Shown here in pieces: positions 2 to 40,641 of a DNA stretch of 44,188 bases (its first letter is position 1; each line of letters starts with the position of its first letter). A model generated the notes under the pieces. The model saw only the letters and a list, made by a program, of their open reading frames with translations, made no database searches and had not been told where the DNA came from. The position numbers and the translations under genes are program-made. The DNA comes from a virus. The stretch is from the IMG/VR virus record IMGVR_UViG_3300033149_006035, positions 1 to 44,188 of that record; one strand, given 5' to 3'.

Positions 2-1192
2 ATCACCATGCTCAGGCGGCATGGCCACGAGGCTCATCTCTATGTATCTGAGAAGTACAACGGCGAGGAGTTCTCGCCCGGGATCCCGGTTCACAAAAAA
101 GTCCCTTTTGCTCACCTCACAGATTACACCTCTATCAAGTATCTGTCCCCTGAACACAAAATGACGGCAAAAGCGACTGCGAAGGTGCTGAAGGAAGAGC
201 TCTCCAGGTTCGACATGGTATGGACCCATGACTGGATATTTACCGGGTGGAATGTCCCTTACGGACTGGGCTGTCAGCTCGCCTGGCCGGACATGCCGGG
301 AACTGCATGGCTCCACTGGATCCACTCGGTTCCTTCCCACAGCCGCGATTTCTGGCAGATAAGGGCCTACGGCCCCAGGGCAAAGATAGTCTTCCCGAAC
401 AGGACCGACGCCCTCCTCGTCGCGGAGCAGTTCAAGGGCGAAATAGACGATGTCAGGCCGATCCACCATATCAAGGACTTGCGGACGTTTTATGATTTCA
501 GCGCAGACACCTGGCGCTTAATAGACCTTGTCCCCCAGGTCATGAGCGCCGACGTGGTCCAGGTCCTCCCTGCGTCTGCGGACCGGCTCAGCGCCAAGAG
601 GGTCAAGGAGGTGATCACCATATTCGGCCACATCAACAGGAGGGTGAACGAGGTCTGCCTCTTAATTGCCAACCAGTGGGCCACAGAAAGACAGCACAAG
701 GAGGACATAGCGAAATACTATGAGCACGCAAAGGCCTGCGGCCTTGAGCCGGGCCGGGACGTGGTTTTCACAAGCGACGTCATGCCGGAGTATAGGGTCG
801 GCATCCCCAAGCGTATGATCCGGGAGCTTTTGCTTTGCTCCAACCTTTTCATTTTCCCGACGAGGGAAGAGTCCTTCGGCCTGGTAGTGCCTGAAGCAGC
901 CCTCCACGGGGTCCAGCTCGTGCTCAATAGATCCTTGACCCAGCAGTACGAAGTGGCGGGGCACAATGCGCTTTTTTTCGACTTCGGCTCATACCGCCAT
1001 GAGCACCACAACAAGATGGGAGACAGGTATTACGCAGAGATAGCGATCATCATCCTCGGCAAGATGGCCAAGTCTGACGTGATCCGTTCCAAGACCTTTG
1101 CCCGGAAGTGCTACAACATGGACTACCTCTACCGGACAGAGTATGAGCCGGTCATGGGCGAGTCACTGACATGGGGGAGGAAAGCGGCATGA
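2..1192 (+). CDS. GT-B glycosyltransferase (GT4-like), 5' end cut by window
   Basis: Probable retaining glycosyltransferase that moves a sugar from a nucleotide donor to an acceptor in the cytoplasm. The frame is open from the first bases of the window. The first visible residues (ITMLRRHGHEAHLY) match the point where GT4 proteins already have a glycine-rich first strand behind them, so the true start lies upstream and the ATG at 8 is internal. The C-terminal half has the GT4 donor-binding signature near residues 285-300 (FPTREESFGLVVPEAALHG), with the E-x7-E pair that binds the nucleotide sugar. It ends by overlapping the next start (ATGA at 1189-1192), so it is translationally coupled to a run of glycosyltransferase and methyltransferase genes. 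The acceptor is unknown: host surface glycan, phage DNA and virion protein are all possible. Confidence 0.8.
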   Translation: MTMLRRHGHEAHLYVSEKYNGEEFSPGIPVHKKVPFAHLTDYTSIKYLSPEHKMTAKATAKVLKEELSRFDMVWTHDWIFTGWNVPYGLGCQLAWPDMPGTAWLHWIHSVPSHSRDFWQIRAYGPRAKIVFPNRTDALLVAEQFKGEIDDVRPIHHIKDLRTFYDFSADTWRLIDLVPQVMSADVVQVLPASADRLSAKRVKEVITIFGHINRRVNEVCLLIANQWATERQHKEDIAKYYEHAKACGLEPGRDVVFTSDVMPEYRVGIPKRMIRELLLCSNLFIFPTREESFGLVVPEAALHGVQLVLNRSLTQQYEVAGHNALFFDFGSYRHEHHNKMGDRYYAEIAIIILGKMAKSDVIRSKTFARKCYNMDYLYRTEYEPVMGESLTWGRKAA

Positions 1193-2307
1193 GACTGGTG
1201 TTCCTTTATTATTCGTACAAGCACGGGTATGGCCAGAACCAGGCATGGGATCCCCGTGTCGAATCGAAGAACTTTTACGCCGAGCGCTTCACCCAGGAGG
1301 GCTATTATAAATTAATCCAGTACATGGCCGAGCGCCGGATCATCGACGAGGCCCTGGTCGTCATCGAGTCAAGAGACAGGCCAGGATACCGCGCTTACAG
1401 CGACAGGGTCGACTGCCTTGTTATGCCGGATATAACAAAGAGTCTGGGAGAATTTATTAGAGGCAACGATATCATCTGGGTCAGAGGAGGCTTCAAACAT
1501 TGGCATGACTGGCTCGCCAGGATGCACGAGCTGGGGTTCTGGCTCATGGTCTATGCCGCCAACACGGGAAGGCAGAAGTGGAGGTTCTGGGATGTCGTTT
1601 TCAATGACCTGGAGGGACGAAATTATGTCGATGAGGTCGGCAGGGTCCACCTGGATTTCAGGAAGCCGGTCAACGATGAGATATTTTACCTGAACCCGAT
1701 GCCTGAGAGGTGGGACGTCATGATCGGCGCAAGCCGGGTTCACGACAGGAAAGGGCAGTGGCGGGTCATAGATGCCCTGGCCACATATAAAGAGCTCTAC
1801 AAGGAGCCGCTCAGGGCTGTCCTCCCTGGGCCGTTTTCAAGGGGCGTCGAGACGAACAGGATCCGCGACAAGATTCATTTTCACAACCTTCCCGTTGATG
1901 TCACGGGTGAGCTGCCCAGGGAAGACCTCGCGGTCGTTATGAACTCATCAAAAATATTTGTCGGCCTGGGAACCCACGGCCAGGGAGACCGCGGACCTAT
2001 AGAAGCGATGGCCTGCGGGTGCCCACTGCTAATCGGGTACCCTCAATATCATGCGCCATGGCTGACCGGAAATATGAGATATGCGCTGATTTCAAGCAAT
2101 CCCGAAAACCCGATAATAGTGGCCAAGGAGATGCGCAAAATGCTGGACAATTACACGCCCGATCTGCGCAGCAAAGTCAGCAAATACAGGGAACAGTGCG
2201 CCGGCATGATAACAGCGATTTTGCCGCGGATGGCCAGGCTTTTTTCCTTTTTCAAGGGCCACCCAAGGGCGGACCGAAAAAAGCTGGCTAAGGAGCTCGG
2301 ACTATGA
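1189..2307 (+). CDS. GT-B glycosyltransferase-like protein
   Basis: Second probable GT-B glycosyltransferase, about 372 residues. I place the start at the ATG at 1189 (MRLVFLYYSYKHGYG), overlapping the previous stop and preceded by GGGAGGAAAG; the ATG at 1171 lies farther inside the previous gene. The C-terminal half contains VGLGTHGQGDRGPIEAMACG, the usual position of the donor-binding loop, with an acidic residue before a GCPLLIGYP strand. The N-terminal acceptor domain is unusual, with an aromatic-rich start (FLYYSYKHGYGQNQAWD), so the acceptor may be specialised. It overlaps the next start by ATGA at 2304. The fold assignment is an inference from motif order and length. Confidence 0.7.
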   Translation: MRLVFLYYSYKHGYGQNQAWDPRVESKNFYAERFTQEGYYKLIQYMAERRIIDEALVVIESRDRPGYRAYSDRVDCLVMPDITKSLGEFIRGNDIIWVRGGFKHWHDWLARMHELGFWLMVYAANTGRQKWRFWDVVFNDLEGRNYVDEVGRVHLDFRKPVNDEIFYLNPMPERWDVMIGASRVHDRKGQWRVIDALATYKELYKEPLRAVLPGPFSRGVETNRIRDKIHFHNLPVDVTGELPREDLAVVMNSSKIFVGLGTHGQGDRGPIEAMACGCPLLIGYPQYHAPWLTGNMRYALISSNPENPIIVAKEMRKMLDNYTPDLRSKVSKYREQCAGMITAILPRMARLFSFFKGHPRADRKKLAKELGL

Positions 2308-2996
2308 AGAAACCCACGTTTTCCGCCGTTGTCCCGGTCGTCAACAGAAAAATGGCAAACCGGCTTTTCGCCTCCATTGATGACAATCTTTACGGGCCTG
2401 AAAAGGTAATCGTCATCGACAACACGCGCGGCCATAAGAGGCTGGAAATGAAGGCGTCTTTTTCCAACGTCCTAATGCTGAAGCCCAGTGAACCCCTCCC
2501 TGTCAACCCTTCATGGGAAATAGGGATCAGGCTGTCCGGGGACGTCAATTTTGTGAGCATCCTCAATGACGACGTGATCCTTGGGCCTGGTTTTTTTGAG
2601 TGGGTCGCCTGTGTCTTTGAGCGATATGCAGATGCGGGCGCGGTCTGCCCTCATACGCTGACGCCCGAGAACAGCGAAATCCCGGAACCCGGCATTCACC
2701 GGATGAAGAGGAAAGAGGGCTGGGCATTTACCATGCGAAAGGCGCTCCTCGACCAGATCCCGCCGATCCCGGAAGGGTGCAGGTATTTCTTTGGTGACAA
2801 CTGGTTCTGGTGGTTCACATACCGGAAGTTCAACATGCTCTGGTACAAGGATACAGGGAACGTCATATGGCATGAGGTCGGAGCATCCGTCAGAAAAATC
2901 GATGGATACCGCAGAATTAAGGAGAAAGAGAAAGAGGTATGCTCCAGGGCCTTGAGGGGGTATTTCCCGGGATCCAAGAAGGAGGCCAAGAGGTGA
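2304..2996 (+). CDS. GT-A (GT2-like) glycosyltransferase
   Basis: Short GT-A type glycosyltransferase, 230 residues. The N-terminus has the Rossmann-like strand and loop of family 2 (FSAVVPVVNRK, then VIVIDNTRG), and an LNDDV motif near residue 90 stands where the metal-binding DxD sits. An aromatic-rich segment (FFGDNWFWWFTYRKFNMLWY) lies near residues 165-185. The length suits a minimal GT-A domain without membrane segments, so it acts in the cytoplasm. It starts in ATGA overlap with the upstream gene and its stop overlaps the GTG of the next, so the set forms one operon. The sugar and acceptor cannot be read from the sequence. Confidence 0.72.
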   Translation: MKKPTFSAVVPVVNRKMANRLFASIDDNLYGPEKVIVIDNTRGHKRLEMKASFSNVLMLKPSEPLPVNPSWEIGIRLSGDVNFVSILNDDVILGPGFFEWVACVFERYADAGAVCPHTLTPENSEIPEPGIHRMKRKEGWAFTMRKALLDQIPPIPEGCRYFFGDNWFWWFTYRKFNMLWYKDTGNVIWHEVGASVRKIDGYRRIKEKEKEVCSRALRGYFPGSKKEAKR

Positions 2997-3521
2997 GGCC
3001 CAGGAAGTTCAGGCAGATGGAGTTTAGGGATCTCTTGATCGAGCTGATACAATTGCTCCAGCCGAGCGTGTATTGCGAGGTCGGGGTCAAGCGCGGATAT
3101 ACCTTCAACACAATAACCCCCCTGGTAAGCCTTGCCATTGCCGTGGACATAATGCCCCTGGATTGCATAGAAAAACCTTTGCCGGGCCGGAAGATAAAGA
3201 AATACCGGATGACTTCGGACGACTTCGCAAAAAAATACAAAGGTCCTCCCATAGACTTCCTGTAATGACGTTCTTCAAATAGGCAGGCATGTCAGGGACC
3301 AAACAGGGCTGATCTTCCTCCATGACACATACCCCGTTATTCCAGAACTGGCAGTGCCGGGGTATTGCCACAATGCGTGGGAGGCAGCCGAGTATTTCCA
3401 CAAGCACGGCGCAGAATACGGATTCGAGATAGTTACCCTGCCCGGGCCTTGGGCCGGGCTTTCCATCATGAGGAAGGTCGAGGCGGGGCACTTGCACTGG
3501 AGGAGCAATGAGGCCGCTTGA
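2993..3521 (+). CDS. Class I SAM methyltransferase, frameshifted
   Basis: SAM-dependent methyltransferase of the Methyltransf_24 kind. The start is GTG 2993, in GTGA overlap with the previous stop and 7 bases after AAGGAGG. The N-terminus holds the SAM motif (VYCEVGVKRGYTFNTITPLV) and AVDIMPLD. The frame stops at TAA 3263-3265 just after PPIDFL, but the next frame continues the fold at once: NDVLQIGRHVRDQTGLIFLHDTYPVIPEL, then GFEIVTLPGPWAGLSIMRKV, ending at 3521 and overlapping the next start. One missing base near 3263 is the simplest explanation. A programmed +1 shift at the stop is possible but has no other support. Its place among glycosyltransferases suggests O-methylation of a sugar. 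Confidence 0.72.
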
Positions 3522-4104
3522 AGATATATATGGCAAGAGGTTCTTTAAGGGCAGGCACCGCCTGAACTGGCGTGCGCCCATTGTATGCGGCGCCATAAAA
3601 GACGTATTTGAGCCGGCCTCGGTGATCGATGCGGGCTGTGCGACTGGCGACCTGGTGCTTCAGTTCATGACCATGTCGATTGACGCCTATGGCATAGAGG
3701 GATCCAGGGCGGTTATCCCATATCTTGAGTGCCCCATCGGCAGAGTGTTTTTCTACGACCTGCGTAAACCCCTGCCGGGGCCTTCGAGACGGTACGACCT
3801 TGCCATATCGTTCGAGGTGGCAGAGCACATCGAGCCTGAATATGCAGAGCAGTTCGTTTTAAACCTGGCCGGCCTCTCAGACCGCATCCTGATGTCCGCA
3901 GCGCCTCCGGGGCAGGGAGGGCACCATCACGTCAACTGCCAGCCGCCCGGATATTGGACCGAGATGTTCTGGCCACACGGGTTTTTCAGGAAGCCCAGGA
4001 TTGAGGGGCAATTCAGGATTCATCTTTCGCCCTGGGCTAAGAAAAAAGGGATCAAGGCATACTATGAGAACAGCCTGTATTTTGAAAGGAGAGCCTATGA
4101 TTGA
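3508..4104 (+). CDS. Class I SAM methyltransferase (Methyltransf_11/23-like)
   Basis: Methyltransferase of 198 residues. Motif I is VIDAGCATGDLVLQF near residues 37-51, followed by the acidic strand end AYGIEGSR (ribose-binding position) and YDLAISFEVAEHIEPE, the motif IV region of small-molecule methyltransferases. The start at 3508 overlaps the end of the frameshifted methyltransferase and follows a GGAGGAG run. The protein overlaps the next glycosyltransferase start at 4097. Such enzymes commonly cap or decorate sugars in glycan clusters; the substrate here is inferred from neighbours only. Confidence 0.78.
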   Translation: MRPLEDIYGKRFFKGRHRLNWRAPIVCGAIKDVFEPASVIDAGCATGDLVLQFMTMSIDAYGIEGSRAVIPYLECPIGRVFFYDLRKPLPGPSRRYDLAISFEVAEHIEPEYAEQFVLNLAGLSDRILMSAAPPGQGGHHHVNCQPPGYWTEMFWPHGFFRKPRIEGQFRIHLSPWAKKKGIKAYYENSLYFERRAYD

Positions 4105-4780
4105 GATCCTCATGACCGCGACAAAGCGCCCGGAGATCATCGAAAGAACCTTGAGGTCCTTTAAGGCTAACCTTTTCCGAAACATCCCGACGAAGGTAAT
4201 CGTCAATATAGACCCTGTCGGGCCTGGGACGACAAAGGATGTCCTGGACGTAATAGGGGAATACTTCCGGGTCAAGTCGGTCAACCTACCGGAGGTTCCC
4301 CATTTCGGCAAGGCCTTCAAGTGGGTGTGGTCACAGGCCGAGGCGGACCTCTGCTTCTGGCTGGAGGACGACTGGGAGCTTATCCGCCCGCTGAGCCTCC
4401 TCGACATGATGGAGGTCATGTTTGAAACCCCTGACCTGGCATCCTTGAGGCTCAACTGGAAGCCCACCAAGCAGTGGGCCATGAAGAACTGGAAGTTTTA
4501 TTTCCTCTGGGTTCAGGTCAACAAATCGGGCTTCTTTGAATGCCCCAGGAACGTCCGGAAATGCGCACAGTGGGTTGATGCCAACCTCAACCCTGAGAAG
4601 CAGTTCCACAACGGGAACGAGAAGCTGATCAGGGAGGTCCTTAAGTGGCGCTACGGCGTCTACGGGGGGCAGAACCAGCCGCCTTCGGTCAGAGACATCG
4701 GCAGGGAATGGATGATATCGCACGGCTATAGGAAGAAAGCGAACAAGGCCTGGTTCACCCAGTGGGAGGAGGTGGCGTAA
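4097..4780 (+). CDS. GT-A (GT2-like) glycosyltransferase
   Basis: GT-A glycosyltransferase of about 227 residues. The start is ATG 4097 (MIEILMTATKRPEIIERTL), after an AAAGGAGAG site and overlapping the previous stop; an open frame extends upstream to 4001 but lies inside the methyltransferase gene. Family features are the N-terminal strand ILMTATKRPEIIERTLRSF, NIDPVGPG at the nucleotide-binding position, and FWLEDDWEL near residue 90 as the DxD-like metal site. The stop overlaps the next start (TAATG at 4778-4782). It probably adds one sugar in the glycan made by this cluster. Confidence 0.75.
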   Translation: MIEILMTATKRPEIIERTLRSFKANLFRNIPTKVIVNIDPVGPGTTKDVLDVIGEYFRVKSVNLPEVPHFGKAFKWVWSQAEADLCFWLEDDWELIRPLSLLDMMEVMFETPDLASLRLNWKPTKQWAMKNWKFYFLWVQVNKSGFFECPRNVRKCAQWVDANLNPEKQFHNGNEKLIREVLKWRYGVYGGQNQPPSVRDIGREWMISHGYRKKANKAWFTQWEEVA

Positions 4781-5640
4781 TGGCGAAGCTGTCTGTGATC
4801 ATGCCTTTTGCGAACGAGTATCCCCAGGTGATCTTCACCATCCGGGCGATCGCTGAGGAGCTGATGGGCAAGGTGGACTTCGAGATCATCGCGGTGGACA
4901 ACTACTGCGCCGAGCTGCACAACCAGAAAAAGACCGTCAAGGTCAGGCGGAATGGGGAAGAGCTGGAGCATGTCGAATCAAAGCAGTACCCGGACAGAGG
5001 AGGGGAGGTCGTCGAGGGATCCCAGAGGGCCTGCTCGCCCTGGCTGAAGTACGTCAAGTATGATGAAAAGCTCTCTCACTGGAACGCGAAGAACGCGGGG
5101 ATCTGCGAGGCGACAGGCGAGTTTTTCTATTTTGTTGACGCCCACGTCATGCCCAGCCGGGACTCCATCTCCCAGATGTTCCTTTACTATGAGAAGCACT
5201 GGCAGGAACTTAACGGCACTATTGCGCTGCCCCTGACCTACAAGATCCTTGAAAGCCGGCGCCTCATTTACAAGCTCTTCATCGAGGACGACGGCACGGT
5301 CCACTACAAGTTTACGCCCCTCCGCAAGGTGGACGAGCCCTTCCGCGTCCCCTGCATGTCGGCCTGCGGGGTCATGATGCACAGGTCAATAATGGAGGGC
5401 CTGGGCGGAGGGTGGCCGGAGCGCCTGGGGATCTATGGCGGCGGGGAGAACTTCTTGAACTTTGTCCTCGCTACCCAGGGCCGTACCGTCAATATTTATC
5501 CCTTCGGTACGCTTTATCACCACGGGGATCCCCGGGAGTATTACTGGAACTGGACGGACTACACCAGGAACCGGGCCGTCGCCAACTACATGATAGGCGG
5601 GGAGGGGGAGTGCTCGGCAGGATCAGGGCCGAGGTGCTAG
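4780..5640 (+). CDS. GT2-family glycosyltransferase, C-terminus frameshifted
   Basis: Family 2 glycosyltransferase. The start is ATG 4780 (MAKLSVIMPFANEYPQVIFTIRAI) in TAATG overlap with the previous gene. Features are FEIIAVDNYC (nucleotide binding), FFYFVDAHVMPSRDSI (DxH in place of DxD) and GLGGGWPERLGIYGGGENFLNFVL (acceptor loop). The frame ends at 5640 after GGEGECSAGSGPRC, but the -1 frame reads on as a sensible C-terminus from about 5608 to 5777 (VLGRIRAEVLESCTGHREKI, then SIQTWVEKCILEGWLENT). One lost base in the G-rich stretch 5597-5611 would explain this, so the true gene probably ends at 5777. It is the last gene of the glycan cluster and faces the TIR gene tail to tail. Confidence 0.75.
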   Translation: MAKLSVIMPFANEYPQVIFTIRAIAEELMGKVDFEIIAVDNYCAELHNQKKTVKVRRNGEELEHVESKQYPDRGGEVVEGSQRACSPWLKYVKYDEKLSHWNAKNAGICEATGEFFYFVDAHVMPSRDSISQMFLYYEKHWQELNGTIALPLTYKILESRRLIYKLFIEDDGTVHYKFTPLRKVDEPFRVPCMSACGVMMHRSIMEGLGGGWPERLGIYGGGENFLNFVLATQGRTVNIYPFGTLYHHGDPREYYWNWTDYTRNRAVANYMIGGEGECSAGSGPRC

Positions 5641-31928: not shown

Positions 31929-32411
31929 ATGACCTTAGATTTTGGAAGGACGGACACCGTCCACACTCAGGATAACTTGATAGCTGGCCCCATGCCGCGC
32001 TCGGAGGTAGGCATCGTCCTGGCATCCGGAGAGAACCTCTCAAGGGGCGCCCCTCTTGGCCGGGTCACAGCAACCGGCAAGTACAAGGAATGGGATCCCA
32101 ATGCCAGTGACGGAACTCAGAATTTCCGCGCCATACTGGCCGAGGACTGCGATGCGTCGGGAGGCGATGAGAACTGCGTCGCCTATTTTTCTGGCCAGTT
32201 CAATTACGATGGGATCCAGTGGGATGCTGACAAGCACCAGAAAGACGACAGACTAGACGCGATCCTCGAAGGCCATGACCGCGGGATCTTCATCCTTGGC
32301 CACGACATAGGCGTGAGCGAGTCCGCGTGGACTTCAACTTCAACCACAACCACGAGCTCGACATCCACCACAACATCGTCCAGCTCGTCAACCACCACCA
32401 CGACAGCATAA
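31929..32411 (+). CDS. Lambda gpD-like head decoration protein with Thr/Ser tail
   Basis: 160 residues after AGGAGGTGAAAACTA. Residues 1-130 are the head decoration fold: DTVHTQDNLIAGPMPRSEVG, GENLSRGAPLGRVTATGKYK, NFRAILAEDCDASGGDENCV, AYFSGQFNYDGIQWD, LEGHDRGIFILGHDIGV. The last ~28 residues (coded by 32331-32408) are almost only Thr and Ser, ending STTTTTA. The codons are mixed (ACT, ACC, ACA, ACG, TCA, TCC, TCG, AGC), so the amino acids are maintained rather than a DNA microsatellite. The tail would protrude from the capsid surface at every decoration trimer. Confidence 0.85.
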   Translation: MTLDFGRTDTVHTQDNLIAGPMPRSEVGIVLASGENLSRGAPLGRVTATGKYKEWDPNASDGTQNFRAILAEDCDASGGDENCVAYFSGQFNYDGIQWDADKHQKDDRLDAILEGHDRGIFILGHDIGVSESAWTSTSTTTTSSTSTTTSSSSSTTTTTA

Positions 32412-32448
32412 GCGCTGTCTGGGGAAAGAGATAAGGAGGTGCTATTCA

Positions 32449-33480
32449 ATGGGACTTTTAGACTTTGATGAATTCAAATGGAGAGCCATGACCTCCGCCA
32501 TCAACCAGATCAAGGCGGCGGCGAGCCTGGTCAAGGATTTGATTTTTCGTGAGTCAAATCCCCAGCCCTCCGAGTACATCGACGTTGATGTCGTTATCGG
32601 GGGCCGGAAGATCGCTCCGTTTGTATCCCCGATTCAGGGCGGTATTGTGGTCGAAAAGATGGGGCGTGAGATGAGGTCGATCAGGGCTCCCAGGATCAGG
32701 TTGAAAAAGCCTTTCTCCGCCCATGAGCTCCTGACCACTAGGGCACCTGGAGCCGGGTTCTATACGACAGGCGGGTCAGATGCCCAGGCTTACCGGAGGA
32801 AAAAGGTCGCCCAGGAGCTCAACGATCTCAAGAACAACCGCATCGCCAACACCCTTGAGTGGATGTGTTGCCAGGCGCTCACCGGGATTTTGTCCTATGA
32901 GGGAGAGAACATCTCCTTCCAGGTGGATTACAAGATGCCGTCCAGCCACAAGATCACTTTGACAGGCACCGATCTATGGTCAGATACCACTGACTCTGAT
33001 CCAATCAAAAACCTGGATGAGTGGTCAAACCTGATCATCAACGCCCTGGGCTTTGGCCCGGATTTGATGATCATCGGAACCAACGTGGCTAATGCTCTCA
33101 GGAAGCATGAGGATATCAGGAAGCTTCTTGACAACAGGAGGGAAAACCTCGGTCAGTTGACCTGGAAGGCAACGTCCAACTTCATAGGCAACCTGAACGG
33201 GATCGACATCTACCGCTATGGGAGCAAGTACGACGACCTCAACGATACCGAGCAGAACTTCTGGAACCCGAACTACATAGCGCTGGTAGCCACTAGGGCA
33301 AGATTCAGCCGGGAATACGGAATGATCCTTGACCTCAAGGCAGGCGCCAGAGTGGTGGGCGAGTATTTCGCCAAGTCCTGGGAAGAGGAGGATCCGAGCA
33401 ACCTGTGGATCCTGGCAGAGTCGAGGCCGTTGCCGGTCCCCTGGCAGCCCGAAGCCATCGTCTATGCCAAAGTCGTTTAA
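32449..33480 (+). CDS. Major capsid protein, lambda gpE-like
   Basis: 343 residues after AAGGAGGTGCTATTCA. It has the Phage_cap_E pattern: SEYIDVDVVIGGRKIAPFVS, GREMRSIRAPRIRLKKPFSA, LNDLKNNRIANTLEWMCCQA, LMIIGTNVANALRKHEDIRK, NFIGNLNGIDIYRYGSKYDD, FSREYGMILDLKAGARVVGE. Length equals that of lambda gpE (about 340). It is paired with a gpD-like decoration protein as in lambda. Confidence 0.9.
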   Translation: MGLLDFDEFKWRAMTSAINQIKAAASLVKDLIFRESNPQPSEYIDVDVVIGGRKIAPFVSPIQGGIVVEKMGREMRSIRAPRIRLKKPFSAHELLTTRAPGAGFYTTGGSDAQAYRRKKVAQELNDLKNNRIANTLEWMCCQALTGILSYEGENISFQVDYKMPSSHKITLTGTDLWSDTTDSDPIKNLDEWSNLIINALGFGPDLMIIGTNVANALRKHEDIRKLLDNRRENLGQLTWKATSNFIGNLNGIDIYRYGSKYDDLNDTEQNFWNPNYIALVATRARFSREYGMILDLKAGARVVGEYFAKSWEEEDPSNLWILAESRPLPVPWQPEAIVYAKVV

Positions 33481-33483
33481 GCG

Positions 33484-33882
33484 ATGGACCATTATGTGTC
33501 AATCATTGACGGAGCGCTCAAGCTCTTTCTGACGGCGTTCCTCGGGGGGATCGGGTTGTGGGCCTTGAAAAGCTACATCAAGCAGAGGACGGCTCTTCCC
33601 AAAGCGAAGAACGGGTTTGTGACTTTGGAAGACCTCAAGGCGCACTGCGCGGGGATGCAGGAGCAGTGCTTTAAGAACCTGACCCAGAAAATGGATGCCA
33701 TAGGCCGCGTTATCGACCAGCGCCTCAGCCAGGGCGACAGGGTATTCGAGGAACACGCGAACAGGCTGCGGGAGATCGAGGGCAACATGATCAGGGTCAT
33801 GGAAGACCTGAACCAGTTTGAAAAGGGGCTCTGCGACCGGATAGTCGCAGTCATGGTCAAACACCAGAAACAGGGGCCTTAA
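33484..33882 (+). CDS. Small membrane-anchored coiled-coil protein
   Basis: 132 residues with one transmembrane helix near 12-30 (LKLFLTAFLGGIGLWALKSY), then a soluble helical part with probable coiled coil (KMDAIGRVIDQRLSQGDRVF, EEHANRLREIEGNMIRVMED). There is no ribosome binding site, and the start lies 3 bases after the capsid stop, suggesting reinitiation. This layout fits an inner-membrane spanin or accessory holin, but the location among head genes gives no proof. Confidence 0.6.
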   Translation: MDHYVSIIDGALKLFLTAFLGGIGLWALKSYIKQRTALPKAKNGFVTLEDLKAHCAGMQEQCFKNLTQKMDAIGRVIDQRLSQGDRVFEEHANRLREIEGNMIRVMEDLNQFEKGLCDRIVAVMVKHQKQGP

Positions 33883-33885
33883 CCT

Positions 33886-34281
33886 ATGGGATTCGCTTCC
33901 TTAAACGATGTCCGGCGCATCGGCAACCTTCCCGACAGCACCAAGCTGGACAATTCGGTCCTGGAACCGCACCTGAAATCCGCGGTGAGGCTTCTGACCA
34001 AGTGGATCGGCAATTACTCAGGGGCCACGGGGGACAAGAAAGACCGGTGCATAGAGGCCGAGGCCTGCCTGACCATGTATTACGCCCTCCCGGTCCTCAA
34101 CACCTTTTTCACCCAGGGCATAACGACGCTTCAAAAGGAAATAGGTGAAATGGACTTTCAATTTCACTCTCCCGAGGAGATGGAGGCTATCAGGGAGGCA
34201 TGGAAAGACCGGGCCATGGATGCGGTCGCTGAGTGGATGTCGCAGGGAGACCGGCATCCCATAGGATGGTACGCAGTATGA
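33886..34281 (+). CDS. Probable head-tail connector protein
   Basis: 131 residues starting MGFASLNDVRRIGNLPDSTK, then LEPHLKSAVRLLTKWIGNYS and CIEAEACLTMYYALPVLNTF. The helical layout and position after the capsid gene match adaptor proteins of the gp6 kind. It overlaps the next gene by ATGA at 34278. Family membership is an inference. Confidence 0.62.
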   Translation: MGFASLNDVRRIGNLPDSTKLDNSVLEPHLKSAVRLLTKWIGNYSGATGDKKDRCIEAEACLTMYYALPVLNTFFTQGITTLQKEIGEMDFQFHSPEEMEAIREAWKDRAMDAVAEWMSQGDRHPIGWYAV

Positions 34282-34658
34282 GCGCGATCGATGATGCAAT
34301 AGAGGAGCATGTCAGGGCGAAGGTCCAGAAGGCCTACCCTGAACTAGAGGAAGACCAGGTCATTGTGAAATTTCCGGAGGCCAGGGCCGCTTTCAGCAGG
34401 TCCCACAACATGCGCGACAACTCCGGCAAATGGGCCATATGTGAAGAGACCCTCACTTGCATGGTGATCATTGCATCAGAGGAAAAGCTGGACCGGACAT
34501 TGCTGATCAGGAAGCTTCCCAGGAAGACCTATCAGCTAGGTGGTTTCAAGGTTCTCCAGGAATACCAGAGGGCTGTTTATTCAGACCTGGTCGAGGCCAT
34601 AAACATGAAGGGGCTGATTTTTTACATCAGCTACACATACGTCATTTACTCTGAATAA
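34278..34658 (+). CDS. Hypothetical neck/tail completion protein
   Basis: 126 residues from ATG 34278 (MSAIDDAIEEHVRAKVQKAY), in overlap with the previous stop. The middle is strand-rich (GKWAICEETLTCMVIIASEE, LLIRKLPRKTYQLGGFKVLQ) and the C-terminus ends LIFYISYTYVIYSE. Position directly before the major tail protein suggests a tail terminator or completion protein; no signature is seen. Confidence 0.6.
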   Translation: MSAIDDAIEEHVRAKVQKAYPELEEDQVIVKFPEARAAFSRSHNMRDNSGKWAICEETLTCMVIIASEEKLDRTLLIRKLPRKTYQLGGFKVLQEYQRAVYSDLVEAINMKGLIFYISYTYVIYSE

Positions 34659-34675
34659 CAAGGAGGTGCTTTAAG

Positions 34676-35251
34676 ATGCCATTAACTCCTCACAACACGG
34701 AGCTTTACGAACTGGGACGGGGCAAGCTCTACATCGCGGAGTGGTCCGGAGGCTCTCCGGGAGAGTATGAAGAGGTCGGGAACTGCCCGCGGTTCGAGTT
34801 CGAGGTCACGGAGGAAGTCGTCACACACAAGGAAAGCCGGGGAGGGGTCCGCACTAAAGACAAGACCGCAACCCTGGAAGCCGCCTACACCCTGTCCTTT
34901 GACCTGGACGAGATCGCGGCGTCCAACATGGAAAAGTATGTCCGGGGCGAAATCGATGCGTCCAATCCCTATTTGATCCACGGAATAACCACTGACGGCC
35001 TCAAGAAAGAGTACGCGGTCAAGTTTGTCCAGGACAACCAGGAGGGGCCGAACAAGACTTTCGAGTTTTGGAGGTGCAAGCTGAAACCAGGCGGAGCGCA
35101 CTCTGTAATCGGGGACGAATTCTCGATTCTGCCGTTCAGCGGAGAAGCCCTGAGCGACAAGACGAACCATCCGAGTTCGCCGTATTTCGACGTCAAGTAC
35201 CACAGCACGACAACGACATCCAGTTCGACCACGACAACGACAACAGCGTAA
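34676..35251 (+). CDS. Major tail (tube) protein with Thr/Ser tail
   Basis: 191 residues after CAAGGAGGTGCTTTAAG. The tail-tube pattern is GRGKLYIAEWSGGSPGEYEE, VGNCPRFEFEVTEEVVTHKE, TLEAAYTLSFDLDEIAASNM, KKEYAVKFVQDNQEGPNKTF, EFWRCKLKPGGAHSVIGDEF and SILPFSGEALSD. The last ~16 residues (35202-35248) are STTTTSSSTTTTTTA, the same kind of tract as on the decoration protein, with mixed codons. In the assembled tail this would put a Thr/Ser fringe along the tube. Confidence 0.78.
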   Translation: MPLTPHNTELYELGRGKLYIAEWSGGSPGEYEEVGNCPRFEFEVTEEVVTHKESRGGVRTKDKTATLEAAYTLSFDLDEIAASNMEKYVRGEIDASNPYLIHGITTDGLKKEYAVKFVQDNQEGPNKTFEFWRCKLKPGGAHSVIGDEFSILPFSGEALSDKTNHPSSPYFDVKYHSTTTTSSSTTTTTTA

Positions 35252-35280
35252 CTCATTAACCTTACACGAAAGGAGTCCGT

Positions 35281-35694
35281 ATGATCCAGACGGGAACCGT
35301 CGAGCTTGGCGAGGAAGGGCAAAAAAGGACCGTCACGGTAAAAGAGCTGACTGTGAGCCAGGTTCTTTCGATATTCAACAAGTTTGCCAAGCCTGCCCAA
35401 GATGCCCGCGGGCTCGACGATATGCTGACCGAGGCAAAAGAGCTTTTTTCCATGTCCATCGAGGGCCTCCAGTGGGAAGAGCTGAAAGATTTCGCGCCAT
35501 CAGAGCTGAAGATGCTCTATGACAAGTTCCGGGAGGTCAACGCCGTTTTTTTCGACGTGGCGCGCTCCCTGGGGATCGAGGAGGCCCTGGGAGAGATAAT
35601 ACGCGCGCTAAAAAGCGACTTTATAAGCATATTTGCCGCCTCCTCGAAAGAGGACACCGCGATGTCCTCAACTACGGATACCGCTATTTCTTAA
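35281..35694 (+). CDS. Tail assembly chaperone (G-like)
   Basis: 137 residues after GAAAGGAGTCCGT. The sequence (MIQTGTVELGEEGQKRTVTV, KELTVSQVLSIFNKFAKPAQ, DFAPSELKMLYDKFREVNAV) is typical of tail chaperones between the tube and tape measure genes. The -1 frame is open from at least 35607 to 35885 and encodes a protein-like T extension (RLYKHICRLLERGHRDVLNY, GYRYFLICLEVTAELDLERE). It is therefore probably a G/GT pair with a programmed -1 shift, likely at the A5 run at 35610-35614. Confidence 0.75.
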   Translation: MIQTGTVELGEEGQKRTVTVKELTVSQVLSIFNKFAKPAQDARGLDDMLTEAKELFSMSIEGLQWEELKDFAPSELKMLYDKFREVNAVFFDVARSLGIEEALGEIIRALKSDFISIFAASSKEDTAMSSTTDTAIS

Positions 35695-35885
35695 TTTGCC
35701 TCGAAGTGACCGCCGAACTAGACCTGGAAAGAGAGCTGGATCTGGCGACCGCCTTTCGCATGTCACAACTGGATAACAAAGCATGGAAGGAGTACGTTAG
35801 ACATGCCAGCCGGTTCAAAGAGCGACACGTTAGACGTGATTATCCGGGTAAAGGACGCGGCCACAAGAAACCTTCAAAAAGTTGA
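35607..35885 (+). CDS. Tail chaperone T extension by -1 frameshift
   Basis: The -1 frame continues about 90 codons past the slip region: KKRLYKHICRLLERGHRDVL, NYGYRYFLICLEVTAELDLE, MSQLDNKAWKEYVRHASRFK, then a basic tail to TGA 35883-35885. It overlaps the tape measure start by 83 bases, as T extensions of siphoviruses usually do. The slip site CTA-AAA-AGC lets the Lys tRNA re-pair on AAA in the -1 frame. The heptamer is not the canonical X-XXY-YYZ, so efficiency is unknown. Confidence 0.6.
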   Translation, partial: AKKRLYKHICRLLERGHRDVLNYGYRYFLICLEVTAELDLERELDLATAFRMSQLDNKAWKEYVRHASRFKERHVRRDYPGKGRGHKKPSKS

Positions 35886-37095
35886 CAGAGGCCTCCAAAA
35901 ACTACAATCCCGCCTTAAATCCCTACCAAGAGCCGTCTTTAACCTGAAGACGGCCTTCGCCGGCCTGGGTCTGAGCCTGCTAGCCAGGAACTTCACCCAG
36001 GCCGCCTCCACAGCAGAGCAATACCGGACCCGCCTGAACGTCCTCCTGGGATCGACCATGGAGGGAAACCGCCTCTTTCAGGAGATGGCGGATTATGCGG
36101 GCAAGGTGTCTTTCCGGTATGAGGAGATCATGGGATCGGCCACCAACCTTGCCGGCGTCATGAAAGGGGGCACCGATGAGATAAAGCAGTGGATGCCCCT
36201 GATCGGGGATCTCGCTGCGGCTACAGGGCTGTCCCTTCAGGAGACCACGGGCCAGGTGATCAGGATGTACAGCGCCGGCGCTGCGGCTGCCGATATGTTC
36301 AGGGAACGCGGGGTCTTGGCAATGCTCGGTTTTCAAGCAGGGGTCTCGTATTCGGCAGAGGAGACGAGAAAGCGCCTGCTGGCCGCTTGGAAGGATCCCG
36401 CATCCCAGTTTAGAGGAGCTGCGGGCGAACTGGGAAAAACCTGGGAAGGCCTGATATCCATGATGCAGGACAAATGGTTCCAGTTCCGGAACCTGGTCAT
36501 GGAGGCGGGGGTATTCGACTATTTGAAAGCCTTGATGTCCACTTTCCTGGACTTCATCAACCGGCTCAAGAAAGAGGGCAAGCTCGACAAGTATGCCCAG
36601 GACATGGCCAAGTTCTTTTTAAAAGCAATCAACATTCTCATAAAGGGCGGGGCGGCTGCCCTGGAGGTCATATTGCTGCTGCGAAGGGGCTTTGAAGGGA
36701 TAAAGTTTGTCCTCAACGCAGTCATAGCGGGCTGGGCCAAGCTGATCGCGATAATCATAACCGGGTACTCGAAGATTGCCGGGATCCTGCATATGAAGGG
36801 GATCTCGAAGACACTTCAGGGAGTAGCGGATCGGTTCAATGACATCTCGAAGACCGCCGGGGAAGAAATGAATAAATCTGGCGTGAAGATGGTCGAGCTG
36901 GCCGACAAGCAGGGCAAATACTGGAGGGGCGTCTCAGGGTTCATCGAGAACGTTAAACAAAAAACCGAGGAGCTCGGCAAGGCCCAGGAAAAGGAGGAAA
37001 AGCGCATAAAGCTCAAACCGCCGGTGGACCTCAAAAAGCTTGAGGCCCAACAGAAATCATACGTCGCGCGGCTCTCAGAGACAAGATCGCCTTAG
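35803..37095 (+). CDS. Tape measure protein, N-terminal part
   Basis: 430 residues. The N-terminus (LDVIIRVKDAATRNLQKVDR, GLQKLQSRLKSLPRAVFNLK) and YRTRLNVLLGSTMEGNRLFQ, GSATNLAGVMKGGTDEIKQW, LIGDLAAATGLSLQETTGQV match tape measure proteins of the lambda-like kind. Hydrophobic helices appear at ~275-320 (FFLKAINILIKGGAAALEVI, LNAVIAGWAKLIAIIITGYS). The frame ends at 37095 after YVARLSETRSP, but the -1 frame continues without a gap as ALRDKIALEEYFKERRALIS. A one-base error in the GC run at 37060-37075 is likely, making one gene 35803-38195 (~797 residues). Confidence 0.82.
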   Translation: MPAGSKSDTLDVIIRVKDAATRNLQKVDRGLQKLQSRLKSLPRAVFNLKTAFAGLGLSLLARNFTQAASTAEQYRTRLNVLLGSTMEGNRLFQEMADYAGKVSFRYEEIMGSATNLAGVMKGGTDEIKQWMPLIGDLAAATGLSLQETTGQVIRMYSAGAAAADMFRERGVLAMLGFQAGVSYSAEETRKRLLAAWKDPASQFRGAAGELGKTWEGLISMMQDKWFQFRNLVMEAGVFDYLKALMSTFLDFINRLKKEGKLDKYAQDMAKFFLKAINILIKGGAAALEVILLLRRGFEGIKFVLNAVIAGWAKLIAIIITGYSKIAGILHMKGISKTLQGVADRFNDISKTAGEEMNKSGVKMVELADKQGKYWRGVSGFIENVKQKTEELGKAQEKEEKRIKLKPPVDLKKLEAQQKSYVARLSETRSP

Positions 37096-38195
37096 AGGAG
37101 TATTTCAAAGAGCGCCGGGCTCTTATTTCAAAGGAATTTAAAGCGGAGATAAGCCTTGCCGAGAAATTGGCCGAGCAAGAGGCAGACCCGGCGAAAAAGA
37201 TAGCCCTCCAGGACAGGGTGTTCAAGCTGAGGCAGGAGTTCAACCGGGCACTCATCGCCCTGGACCAGGAGCGCTTTGAAAAGACGGAGGACCTGGCACA
37301 AAAAGAAGTGGACAGGAAAAAGATCCTGGAATCGTTGAAGCTTAGAATCGCAACTGATTTTGCAGGGAATCTCCAGGCACAGTTCCAAAAAGAGCTGGCC
37401 GAGATGGATGAGAGGCACCAGGAGGAGATAAAGCGGCTCCAGGACCTCAATGCAAAAAAAGCCGAGATCGAGGAGGCGTACAGGCTCCAGAAACAGGAAA
37501 AAGACAAGCTCATGCTCGACCAGGAGCGAAGGCTAAACGAGTACAGGCTCCAGCTCGCCTCAGACACGGCAAAAGGCATGGCAGACGTATTCAACGAGGT
37601 CTATGAGCTCTCAGGGCAAAAGCGCAAAGAGTTCTTTTACCTCTCTAAGGGCGCGGCCCTGGCCGAGGCAATCATCAACACGGCCCAGGCTGTTACAAAA
37701 GCTATGGCACAGGGCGGAATATGGGGGATCGCCCAGGCAGCCGTGATCGGCGCAAAAGGGGCCATACAGATAGCGAAGATCAGCTCGCAGACCCTCGGAT
37801 CCGGAGGGCTTGTCCTTGGGAAGTCTCCTTCACCCACCTCAGACGACAAGCTTGTCGCCGCTACATCCGGAGAGTTCATGATGCCTGTCAAGGCCGTCAA
37901 AAACTATGGCCTCGGCATCATGGAGGCTCTCCGACGAAATGCTATCCCGAAAAGTATCCTTGAGGGGTGGTCTGTCCCAGGCTGGAGCCGGCCCAGGTTG
38001 GGATTCGCGGCTGGAGGAGCTGTCACTGGGGCGACCGTGCCGGCGGGCCAGGGAGTGACTGTCGAGGCGAGCATTTTCAATCTCCAGGATCCCAGGGACT
38101 TTGAGCGGCAGCTCGCATCTGCCAGGGGCAAAAATGCCCTGATCAATTTCCTCGGACAGAACAGGCAGACGGTGAGGCGGATATTGAGGGGTTAA
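37083..38195 (+). CDS. Tape measure protein, C-terminal part
   Basis: Continuation of the tape measure in the next frame. It begins KIALEEYFKERRALISKEFK, a long charged coiled coil up to ~170 residues, followed by FFYLSKGAALAEAIINTAQA, VTKAMAQGGIWGIAQAAVIG, AKGAIQIAKISSQTLGSGGL and a Gly/Ala-rich C-terminus with SGEFMMPVKAVKNYGLGIME. The FYLSKGAALAEAIINTAQA motif is the classic C-terminal signature of these proteins. An internal ATG at 37167 exists but nothing suggests it is used. The whole gene of ~2.4 kb implies a tail near 120 nm by the usual 0.15 nm per residue rule. Confidence 0.8.
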   Translation, partial: KIALEEYFKERRALISKEFKAEISLAEKLAEQEADPAKKIALQDRVFKLRQEFNRALIALDQERFEKTEDLAQKEVDRKKILESLKLRIATDFAGNLQAQFQKELAEMDERHQEEIKRLQDLNAKKAEIEEAYRLQKQEKDKLMLDQERRLNEYRLQLASDTAKGMADVFNEVYELSGQKRKEFFYLSKGAALAEAIINTAQAVTKAMAQGGIWGIAQAAVIGAKGAIQIAKISSQTLGSGGLVLGKSPSPTSDDKLVAATSGEFMMPVKAVKNYGLGIMEALRRNAIPKSILEGWSVPGWSRPRLGFAAGGAVTGATVPAGQGVTVEASIFNLQDPRDFERQLASARGKNALINFLGQNRQTVRRILRG

Positions 38196-38762
38196 ATGAC
38201 GACCATAAACTCATACCTCCTGAAGAAGCCGGACTGGTCTTCCCCGGTGAAGATACTCAAGACCTGGAGGACCGGGGTTCAGAAAGCCGTCCAGTCCGCT
38301 GAAAAAAGAGAACGCATATACTCGCGGGCCAGGATCGGGATCCGGTTCGCCCTGACAGCCATGGACTACGCCGAGGCGGCTTACATCCACCGCAAGATAT
38401 TCAAATACCAGGGCGGGGTCATCGGGGTTCCCCTGTGGCCATACCTGGCCAGAATAACAGCCCAGGCGAGCGCGGGCCAGAAAGAGGTCCAGGTGGAATC
38501 AACCGTCAACACCTTCTTCACCCCAGGGAGGATTGTGGTCCTCATGGATCCGGCAAACATGGAGAGCTACGAATCGGGCATGATCGCATCTGTTACGTCA
38601 ACTGTAATAACACTTGCGGAAAACCTGGAGAACACCTGGGATGCAGGAGACGAGATCGCCCCGGTGATTCCATGCAGGGTTGGGAACTCCAATTCCTTCA
38701 CATGGGCCACAGACAGGAACTTCAAGATCAGCATTGAGGCGCGAGAGGCGATAGCAGACTAA
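38196..38762 (+). CDS. Distal tail/baseplate protein
   Basis: 188 residues, starting right after the tape measure stop (TAAATG). Pattern: YLLKKPDWSSPVKILKTWRT, RIYSRARIGIRFALTAMDYA, YQGGVIGVPLWPYLARITAQ, VVLMDPANMESYESGMIASV, FTWATDRNFKISIEAREAIAD. It resembles baseplate proteins that sit between tape measure and hub, and the C-terminal half recalls the third domain of the next gene. The overlap TAATGG couples it to the next gene. Confidence 0.65.
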   Translation: MTTINSYLLKKPDWSSPVKILKTWRTGVQKAVQSAEKRERIYSRARIGIRFALTAMDYAEAAYIHRKIFKYQGGVIGVPLWPYLARITAQASAGQKEVQVESTVNTFFTPGRIVVLMDPANMESYESGMIASVTSTVITLAENLENTWDAGDEIAPVIPCRVGNSNSFTWATDRNFKISIEAREAIAD

Positions 38763-39175
38763 TGGCATATGAAGATTTCACGACATACACGGAAGTTGAT
38801 GAAGACAATGACATAACCGTCAGCCAGAACCAGATTACCGTGGATACGATGCGGCGGGACGCAGCTTCTTATGTTCACAAGGATTTTGGGTCCGGCGCAT
38901 TCGGGGACTTCGAGATTCAGTTTGAGGCGACTTGTTCGGCAGTTTCCGGGAATGGCGCCTCTGTAGTCGTCCTAGGGCTGACTAATTCCGGTTTTACCCA
39001 CGAGGATGCTCTCCAGAACAATGAGGGCATTTTGGTGTACTTTTACTATAGTTCATACTTGAGCCCGACAGATCAGGTTGTGGCTTTGATGAGAGGTTCC
39101 GACCAGACCCAGGACTTATATTACTTCTCTTCGATACCGTCCACCTTTCCGATGGTACTGTATATAGGTACTTGA
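38762..39175 (+). CDS. Modular tail protein, N-terminal LamG-like part
   Basis: 137 residues: YEDFTTYTEVDEDNDITVSQ, AASYVHKDFGSGAFGDFEIQ, ATCSAVSGNGASVVVLGLTN, YFYYSSYLSPTDQVVALMRG. This is the first half of a concanavalin/LamG-like beta sandwich. The frame ends in SSIPSTFPMVLYIGT, while another frame continues the fold across 39127-39172 (FDTVHLSDGTVYRYLSPLMS), so a one-base error near 39125 separates it from the 489-residue frame downstream. The joined protein is about 626 residues. Confidence 0.65.
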   Translation: MAYEDFTTYTEVDEDNDITVSQNQITVDTMRRDAASYVHKDFGSGAFGDFEIQFEATCSAVSGNGASVVVLGLTNSGFTHEDALQNNEGILVYFYYSSYLSPTDQVVALMRGSDQTQDLYYFSSIPSTFPMVLYIGT

Positions 39176-40641
39176 GCCCTCTCATGTCGAGGGATCACAA
39201 CGTAGGCGGCGTTGATTCAACAATGACGCTTAATGTCAAGAATTTTGAGATAATTTCAGGGGGGGCATCAACCACCACAACCACGACTACCCAGAGCACG
39301 ACCACCACGAGCACGACCGCGCCCGGCGGGACTTCCACTTCGTCCTCCACAAGCTCAAGCACAACCACGTCGACTCAGTCCACTTCCACGACCACCACGA
39401 CCGAGGTCCCTCCGTGCAAGGACCCCGCCAACTACGCCTACGACGCGCCCCAGGAGTGGACTCACAACGAGAGTAACTGGGCCGGCAGGACGATGCGATA
39501 CATCATTCCGGCATCCAGCTTGAGGGCCGGCGGGTCCGAGGTCTCAGTCTATTTCACCTGGTTCGGTCTCGACTATGAGATCGGCAAATGCTACATCGGC
39601 CACCAGGCAAGCTCCGGCCACGAGTACGACTTTGACGGGAACCAGGTTCAGGTCACTTTCAACGGCGGCTTTCCGGGGGCCACGGTCACAAGCCCAGGTG
39701 AGTGGTCCGACCAGGTCGCTTTCAGTCTTGACCCGTCCAAGAACCTCGTCGTCGCCGTTTACTTTGTTGACAACGGCATCCCGCGCGGGCCGCTTGAGCC
39801 GAACGTCACCGGCTACTGGAAAGACGGGGATGACGCTGCGACGACAGATGCGGTCGGATATTCTCTTCTCCCCACTTACACGGCGCAAAGGGTGATAGAT
39901 GTCGTCTGTGTTTCAGCAGGCTTGACCACCACGAGCACGACCACGACATCATCCACTACCTCCAGCTCGACCACCACGACCGGGCCTGGGGCGACCGGCA
40001 CCACGACCAGCTCTTCGACCACCACTTCAACTCAATCGACAACCTGCACGACCACGACCTCCGGGCCATATTGGTCATGGTACCAGGACAGGCCTGTCTT
40101 CCTGGTCGATCCCAACTGGGTTTCCCCCCTGGATTCAGATATCGATGATCCAACGGAGATCACGGCATATTACGGCAAGGAATACGCCTACGGGCACTAT
40201 CCGGAGGGACCCACCTGGAGGTCGGATATAGTCGTCAATGCGGCCTTTGACGCTGCCGACATCACGCTCAGCGTCGAGGATTTCAAATGGGAAGATTATT
40301 TCCGGCAGACGGGGACAGGTCAGTATCTCTTCTTTGCGTTCCCGGACGGGACCACAGCGGTCAGAAAGCTAATATCCGCAACATCGTCCACAATCACGCT
40401 AGATCAGGCGATCGGAAAGACGGTTTCCACAGATGAGCTCAGCCAGCTCCTGGTCTCGTTTCTCCTGTATGGCCGCTTTGACCAGGACGAGGTCGAGGTG
40501 GAATTTCTGAGCTCCAGGGCAGCAAAAGTCAACTTGAGCTTTCACTCGCTCCCCTACGAGACGCCGGGAGTGATAACGAGCACGTCGAGCACGACTACCA
40601 GCTCGTCAACTACCAGCTCCAGCACGACAACGACGACATAG
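39172..40641 (+). CDS. Modular tail protein with three Thr/Ser tracts
   Basis: Continuation of the preceding frame (its real N-terminal part lies at 38762). After LNVKNFEII come a Thr/Ser tract (39268-39408), a beta-sandwich-like domain (39412-39915: WAGRTMRYIIPASSLRAGGS, YIGHQASSGHEYDFDGNQVQ), a second tract (39922-40065), a baseplate-like domain (40072-40567: VFLVDPNWVSPLDSDIDDPT, FFAFPDGTTAVRKLISATSS, FDQDEVEVEFLSSRAAKVNL) and a third tract to the stop (40573-40638). It is therefore three globular domains joined by mucin-like linkers. Codons are mixed throughout the tracts. A receptor-binding or surface-adhesive fibre near the tail tip is likely. Confidence 0.7.
   Translation: MSPLMSRDHNVGGVDSTMTLNVKNFEIISGGASTTTTTTTQSTTTTSTTAPGGTSTSSSTSSSTTTSTQSTSTTTTTEVPPCKDPANYAYDAPQEWTHNESNWAGRTMRYIIPASSLRAGGSEVSVYFTWFGLDYEIGKCYIGHQASSGHEYDFDGNQVQVTFNGGFPGATVTSPGEWSDQVAFSLDPSKNLVVAVYFVDNGIPRGPLEPNVTGYWKDGDDAATTDAVGYSLLPTYTAQRVIDVVCVSAGLTTTSTTTTSSTTSSSTTTTGPGATGTTTSSSTTTSTQSTTCTTTTSGPYWSWYQDRPVFLVDPNWVSPLDSDIDDPTEITAYYGKEYAYGHYPEGPTWRSDIVVNAAFDAADITLSVEDFKWEDYFRQTGTGQYLFFAFPDGTTAVRKLISATSSTITLDQAIGKTVSTDELSQLLVSFLLYGRFDQDEVEVEFLSSRAAKVNLSFHSLPYETPGVITSTSSTTTSSSTTSSSTTTTT

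Follow-up and report, generated by a model that had tools for sequence, protein, structure and literature searches.

Threonine/serine tails on virion proteins of uncultured tailed phages are linked to a conserved glycosyltransferase module and are probably platforms for a sugar coat

In the virus analysed here (IMG/VR record IMGVR_UViG_3300033149_006035, 44,188 nucleotides, hereafter the window), several virion proteins carry tracts that consist almost entirely of threonine and serine, and such tracts recur in other uncultured phages together with a conserved set of sugar-attaching genes. Since the two go together, it is probable that these phages coat their own particles with sugar. We regard it as quite probable that the tracts serve as O-glycosylation platforms on which enzymes of the phage itself act; the association described below strongly supports the original prediction on this point. 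To our knowledge, glycosylation of the phage particle has been reported in few phages.

The positions predicted for the tracts on the decoration, major tail and modular tail proteins are borne out, and all three proteins are far beyond chance: their longest pure Thr/Ser runs comprise 25, 14 and 21 residues, respectively, against maxima of 8, 8 and 10 when the residues of each protein were shuffled 2000 times. The head decoration protein (31929..32411; this and the other window features given with coordinates below are on the + strand) belongs to the lambda gpD family, as it contains the HDPD domain (PF02924, 6.6e-20, residues 14-120) and adjoins the capsid gene. Its C-terminal tail (32331-32408, TSTSTTTTSSTSTTTSSSSSTTTTTA) is appended past the conserved fold, after residue 120, while the neighbouring major capsid protein E (32449..33480; PF03864, 4.9e-76) is untagged. 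The major tail (tube) protein (34676..35251; phrog_807, 5.9e-30) ends in a tail of 15 residues (35204-35248, STTTTSSSTTTTTTA). In the modular tail-tip protein (38762..40641; phrog_1082 tail assembly protein, 7.5e-26), an N-terminal domain, a Thr/Ser linker (about 39268..39408), a middle domain, a second Thr/Ser linker (about 39922..40065) and the tail-assembly domain are followed by a C-terminal Thr/Ser tail (40573..40638). This protein starts at 38762 and not at 39172 as initially supposed, and its frame is broken in the window at 39146 and about 40186-40210 because of assembly gaps. A sister contig (G003, L012) contains 91 bases that are absent from the window at 39146, and the protein is intact (679 aa) in L010:1045-3084 and a single 679-aa gene in the relative G002. 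A programmed frameshift at 39175 was rejected in favour of an assembly gap, and several broken genes of the window are assembly gaps. Searches of phage records with the modular protein (megablast, tblastn) gave no match. Just beyond the window, in G003 and G002, a fourth tagged protein (207 aa, with a 53-residue tract) lies directly upstream of the glycosyltransferase cluster.

The term "mucin-like" initially given to the tracts is half apt because these long, Thr/Ser-dominated stretches, which resemble the mucin domains of eukaryotic viruses and cells in their dense runs, are nearly free of proline and contain neither proline-rich tandem repeats nor, in the window copies, any regular repeat; unlike those domains, they also belong to a bacterial virus, and their glycosylation is predicted. 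A shorter run noticed in a zinc-ribbon protein is present but amounts to just SSTTTTT in the window. The shared ending TTTTTA is common but not essential: C-terminal tracts in the loci selected through glycosyltransferase 1 (GT1, see below) terminate in A, S, T, P, V or other residues, and an obligatory terminal signal was therefore rejected.

Codon turnover provides clear evidence that selection acts on the amino acids of the tracts, as had been proposed from their mixed Thr/Ser codons. Between the window and G002, a relative whose DNA is about 78% identical, 8 of the 26 codons of the decoration tract differ, all synonymously, and 7 of the final 9 codons in the tail of the tail protein have changed without altering a residue. 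This recoding of the decoration and tail-tube tracts includes swaps between AGY and TCN serine codons (AGT-TCC and TCG-AGC in the tail protein); tract serines are encoded by AGY in 43% and by TCN in 57% of cases. In the modular protein, 72/110 tract codons have changed, with 13 residue replacements, 8 of which are T/S swaps. An origin as functionless DNA triplet expansions generated by slippage has in its favour that one tract unit (in L027) is duplicated exactly in tandem. It is already disfavoured by amino acid conservation in the face of codon turnover, and the codons are mixed, with AGY and TCN serines alternating, the reading frame is kept across about 45 clusters of tagged proteins and no out-of-frame T/S runs extend past the stops, which makes this origin barely credible.

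The prediction of five glycosyltransferases and two methyltransferases at 1-5.8 kb is broadly right, two of the former being assigned through homology or a motif only. GT1 (2..1192; PF13692, 9.3e-5), which serves as the module marker and is cut at its 5' end by the contig end, has the GT-B fold and E-x7-E motif of GT4-like enzymes, with EESFGLVVPEA conserved; its homologues share 42-57% identity in 12 tagged records and 27% in one further record. Glycosyltransferase 2 (GT-B; 1171..2307; PF00534, 1.2e-9) has counterparts at 31-40% identity in tagged phages. The probable GT2-like glycosyltransferase 3 (2304..2996) has no Pfam match of its own, and its homologue at L168:4306-4995 matches PF00535 at 2.3e-4, slightly under the cut-off. 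The SAM-dependent methyltransferase (3508..4104), 40-54% identical to counterparts in tagged phages, matches PF13489 slightly under the cut-off (7.2e-6) and PDB methyltransferases in profile searches. The probable glycosyltransferase 4 (GT-A-like; 4094..4780), having no Pfam match, is assigned tentatively from its conserved LEDDW motif and belongs to a family conserved in tagged phages, whereas glycosyltransferase 5 (family 2; 4762..5640) matches PF00535 at 1.5e-10 and has counterparts there at 42-52% identity. The modules of relatives add sulfotransferases and a PIG-L deacetylase.

A structural model of the G002 copy of GT1 (pLDDT 93.9) matches BshA, MshA and PimA; the folds closest to it are those of various GT4 enzymes, none of them protein-specific. 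Foldseek TM-scores are low (0.3-0.4; whole-chain rmsd 15-18) because whole-chain superposition is poor, and a closer functional assignment is therefore not made. None of the enzymes stood out as an initiating peptide glycosyltransferase, nor was a donor-sugar pathway recognised among the window genes scanned. GT-B enzymes glycosylate modified DNA in T-even phages, and one BFVD structural match of GT1 is a cyanophage DNA alpha-GT. It is nevertheless very improbable that the enzymes decorate modified viral DNA in the manner of the T4 alpha-GT and have nothing to do with the tracts: the window genes scanned, which are part of the gene set, include no hydroxymethylase or base-modification gene, the presence of 4-5 glycosyltransferases, with sulfotransferases in relatives, fits a complex glycan better, and the link to the T/S tails would be left unexplained.

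The original prediction pointed to related phages for co-occurrence of tracts and glycosyltransferases, and there the association holds strongly from both sides. Among large tagged records, GT1 is found in 15/20 as compared to 0/24 controls, and T/S tracts accompany GT1 in 53 of its 79 loci, whereas 120 random viral loci have none (p about 1e-28), in a sample that is not phylogenetically independent, several records being close relatives. Even where a GT1 record has no tract in the flanks, Thr runs occur elsewhere in 6/17, against 0/19 random records. GT-B2, MT, GT-A and GT2 are encoded in 36, 32, 34 and 43 of the 79 GT1 loci, respectively, and in 0/120 random loci; going by this recurrence, the cluster of the window is a conserved module. 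The tracts of module-bearing phages sit on non-homologous virion proteins, mostly on the same strand as GT1 (84:3) and upstream of it (78:9; median 3.3 kb). The glycosyltransferases are thus both phage-encoded and linked to virion genes, as fits virion glycosylation. A few tagged records without such a glycosyltransferase (G010, G023 and G064) speak against the link, but they are classed as linear and possibly incomplete; G010 carries one short pure-Thr run. The short pure-Thr tails of some phages (8-11 Thr, e.g., in L060 and L076) may be of a different nature.

In GT1 loci, roughly half of the tracts (40/87) separate one domain of a long tail protein from the next, and in this respect resemble linkers. 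That they are merely flexible, protease-tolerant linkers or entropic brushes, with glycosyltransferases serving another purpose, is all the same unlikely: C-terminal tails join nothing, a mere spacer would not need near-invariant amino acids despite codon turnover, and tracts and module co-occur far above background from both sides. Phage-borne glycosyltransferases that modify the host O-antigen are common, and the cluster could in principle alter the surface of the host (seroconversion, superinfection exclusion) or its glycans, with tracts that bind such glycans rather than carry them. This is slightly more doubtful still, as the cluster immediately follows the tail genes and shares their strand, like late virion genes, and no GtrA-type flippase was seen among the cluster proteins scanned. 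Moreover, we know of no lectin fold made of pure T/S peptides, although Ig-like domains in the same positions do bind host glycans in mycobacteriophage Douge (PMC13033339).

The trait extends to a large group of uncultured phages. In 82 uncultured viral loci, 147 C-terminally tagged proteins form about 45 sequence clusters, which include major capsid, decoration, tail tube, tail tip and other proteins, and most of the identifiable members belong to the virion surface or the tail. A model of one 211-aa cluster, a tail-tube candidate, gave no usable fold (AlphaFold, pLDDT 32). A search with the C-terminal tag pattern gave 79 viral contigs but no credible match in 257 Gb of prokaryote genomes, where the three matches (Bpl_23 MAG, Nonomuraea and Fluviicola) are all non-coding or in the wrong frame and indicate no host. 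A tblastn search of 50,697 cultured-phage records with GT1 gave no match at 1e-5, and the sole match of the methyltransferase there, in Caulobacter phage Cr30, is weak. By these searches, the combination of Thr/Ser tail and module came to light in neither the cultured phages nor the prokaryote genomes covered. In one group of phages, homologues of the major capsid protein are tagged at the C-terminus, while the homologous protein is untagged in all five tagged-decoration phages in which it was found, the window's aside. A recognisable HDPD domain is present in 6/6 tagged-decoration records versus 0/20 tagged-capsid records above the cut-off. Because G005 has a sub-threshold, partial HDPD match (19 bits) to a 232-aa gene, we do not claim that the capsid is tagged solely when the decoration protein is absent.

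For mycobacteriophages Che8, Corndog and Myrna, glycosylated capsid and tail-tube proteins are reported in PMC12363180 and PMC11256854, which cite Freeman et al. (2023). The present phages resemble them in encoding their own glycosyltransferases and in having capsid and tail-tube proteins as proposed targets; they differ in their predicted acceptors, which are dedicated Thr/Ser tails borne by many proteins unrelated to one another, and in their enzymes, which make up a conserved module of 5-7 genes that includes methyltransferases and, in relatives, sulfotransferases. With the Ig-like domains of phage capsid and tail-tube proteins and of T4 Hoc, the tracts share the C-terminal display position on capsid, decoration and tail-tube proteins. 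The tail protein of the window even falls into phrog_807, "major tail protein with Ig-like domain", yet the best-matching stretch is in its N-terminal half and the C-terminus bears the Thr/Ser tail instead of an Ig-like domain. Unlike Ig-like domains, the tracts have no fold, consist of Thr/Ser only and are linked to glycosyltransferases rather than to glycan binding. Dense Ser/Thr acceptor tracts beside dedicated GT4-type enzymes are also found with the O-glycosylated Ser-rich repeat adhesins and SD-repeat proteins of bacteria (GtfA-GtfB, SdgA-SdgB), but here the tracts are Thr-dominated, on virion proteins and not secreted, and GT1 is not specifically closest to those enzymes, SdgB being one of its many structural matches (Z 14.8).

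If the tracts are glycosylation platforms, they would act as outward display tails and linkers offering dense acceptors for O-linked sugar, made by a late-operon module of two GT-B and up to three GT-A/GT2-type enzymes with methyltransferases. Head and tail proteins and enzymes would be produced together late in infection; one enzyme would attach the initial sugar to Thr/Ser residues in the disordered tails, and the others would extend and methylate it. We infer this attachment and its order, as well as the surface exposure of the tracts, the latter by analogy with the known geometry of gpD and tail-tube C-termini. Once assembled, the head, the tube and the tip of the tail would then bear a short glycan brush where other phages have Ig-like domains. 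Its benefit would most likely be to shield the particle and to tune how strongly it sticks to surfaces of the host or matrix. Of the uses first suggested (antibody escape, mucus binding, masking), antibody escape has no particular claim in phages from the environment such as these, and defence against host enzymes or adsorption traps and binding of host surface glycans are just as plausible. We also lean towards the view that uncultured tailed phages possess a portable system for virion glycosylation, in which a gene-encoded acceptor tail could be placed on any outward-facing head, tube or tip protein and served by the glycosyltransferase/methyltransferase module, in some phages with a sulfotransferase. 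Stop-codon readthrough is possibly part of this system and would yield longer-tailed capsid subunits.

Phage cultivation has apparently missed this trait. If the proposal is true, a short sequence tag and an enzyme set would make sugar-coated phages predictable straight from metagenomes, and the tag would mark which virion proteins are glycosylated. It would also point to the natural purpose of the sugar coat and make a genetically encoded acceptor/enzyme pair available for study.

Direct reading and translation of the window, an IMG/VR virus record, located the Thr/Ser tracts where the original prediction had placed them, namely on the decoration protein (31929..32411), the major tail-tube protein (34676..35251) and the modular tail-tip protein (38762..40641). 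Their longest runs comprise 25, 14 and 21 residues, lengths that shuffles of each protein's own residues never come near. When the window is compared with its relative G002, the decoration tail keeps 26 of 26 residues with 8 codons recoded. In the tail-tube tail, 7 of the last 9 codons differ without any change of residue; the recoded tail-tube serines include AGT/TCC and TCG/AGC, each swap needing at least two base changes. Over all tags pooled, AGY accounts for 43 % of the serine codons. Such codon comparisons indicate that the amino acids of the tracts are under selection between the window and G002.

The window phage is a temperate-type tailed phage encoding an integrase, RecT, TerL, a portal and an XkdF-type protease, together with a lambda-type decoration protein, capsid protein E and tail genes. 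Two sister contigs of the same virus, G001 and G003, are practically identical to the window (zero or few mismatches outside gaps), and in the three-way comparison each sister contig is devoid of discrete stretches 9-146 bases long; gap sites lie at 37082, 39146, 40186-40210 and 40812 in the window and at several places in G003. Since the sister contigs miss different stretches, three genes that are split in the window, the tape-measure gene (35803-38195), the modular tail gene (38762-40641) and one at 40654-41441, are interpreted as interrupted by scaffold gaps that have collapsed, a fault that disrupts several genes across these IMG/VR records. All three are intact in G002 (~78 % DNA identity to the window). 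The window end joins the window start through a piece present in G003 that encodes, just upstream of the glycosyltransferase cluster, a protein of 207 aa whose Thr/Ser tail is 53 residues long. Adjoining this cluster on the opposite strand is a TIR-domain protein (PF13676; 5816-6802, minus strand), which may serve a temperate phage in defence. At 23781-26057, distant from the tail module, an untagged protein of 758 aa that carries a Big_2 Ig-like domain is a candidate surface protein.

Beyond the window, IMG/VR was scanned with a looser C-terminal pattern, Thr6-Ala-stop. With a mixed Thr/Ser pattern, which is stricter, 79 viral contigs gave matches; across 257 Gb of prokaryote genomes it occurred at only three places, and at none of them does a credible reading frame encode a Thr/Ser tail. 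The 147 C-terminally tagged proteins fall into about 45 sequence clusters, with a maximum of four per locus among the loci fetched. Among them PHROGs recognises major head and head decoration proteins as well as major tail, tail assembly, tail and minor tail proteins, and one protein matches a head-scaffolding family. In the capsid proteins of one group, the tag is added past the end point of the window's untagged capsid protein. Two loci (L145, L161) carry an N-terminal rather than C-terminal tract on a virion-region protein. Five others (L024, L036, L081, L094, L106; several of these contigs are ~210 kb) encode a protein of 621 aa that contains a TTTTTTTYTTTTTTY run in its interior and seems to have no connection with the tail system.

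Three tagged capsid genes (L027:5-580; L059:427-1851 and L086:2523-3974, both minus strand) all end TTTTTA-TGA. Past the TGA, 15-35 further in-frame Thr/Ser codons lead to TTTTTA-TAA, and no out-of-frame case of Thr/Ser codons after the stop exists. Elsewhere in L027 and L086, TGA serves as a normal stop codon. This arrangement suggests that stop readthrough may yield longer-tailed capsid subunits.

Co-occurrence of the tracts with the glycosyltransferase set in related phages was found from both the tag side and the enzyme side. Of the tagged records 27 kb or longer, 20 of 23 contain a glycosyltransferase domain (PF00534 or PF00535), versus 3 of 8 untagged ones, and the window's first glycosyltransferase, GT1 (2..1192), is present in 15 of 20 large tagged records versus none of 24 controls. 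Conversely, GT1 relatives were fetched regardless of tags (79 loci, 1.32 Mb), with 120 control loci (1.09 Mb) picked by an arbitrary 14-mer: tracts occur in 53 of the 79 and in none of the 120 (Fisher 7e-29), p-values here being indicative only because the records, mostly fragments, are mutually related and the counts from both sides carry no phylogenetic correction. The tracts lie upstream of GT1 on the same strand, and module partner genes are frequent near GT1 and absent from the 120 random loci.

The window's module (1-5.8 kb) comprises GT1 and GT2 (both GT-B), a GT2-like protein, a methyltransferase, a GT-A-like protein and a family-2 glycosyltransferase, genes that recur in other tagged phages at 27-57 % identity. 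A GT1 model, built on the G002 copy from an alignment of 40 sequences with very high confidence (pLDDT 93.9), has enzymes of the GT4 type among its matches, for example BshA, MshA and PimA, and the E-x7-E motif of GT1 is conserved; GT1 had no match among 50,697 phage records. In relatives the cluster also encodes a C-methyltransferase, Methyltransf_24, sulfotransferases, a PIG-L deacetylase, a hexapeptide transferase and a radical SAM protein. The clusters of L168, L174, L175 and L180 contain sulfotransferases, PIG-L deacetylase, C-methyltransferase and a radical SAM/SPASM protein, hinting that the glycans of these relatives may be sulfated and methylated.

On phage particles, the C-terminus of gpD and the C-terminal domains of tail-tube proteins lie at the surface. 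In mycobacteriophage Douge, the Ig-like domains of the capsid and tail tube point away from the particle and bind glycans of the host (PMC13033339). Three other mycobacteriophages, Che8, Corndog and Myrna, are reported to use enzymes of their own to glycosylate their capsid and tail-tube proteins, and antibody binding is lowered as a result (PMC12363180; PMC11256854). The simplest account of the sequence data is that the Thr/Ser tails would act as acceptors for O-glycans produced by the module; at the level of tract-module association, this supports the proposal that the tracts are O-glycosylation platforms served by the phage's own glycosyltransferases. No description of such a tag-plus-enzyme system was found in the literature covered, which excludes preprints and most subscription papers, and we file it within phage-encoded virion glycosylation, a known kind. 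The finding exceeds the window and points to a putative tag-plus-enzyme system of uncultured phages.
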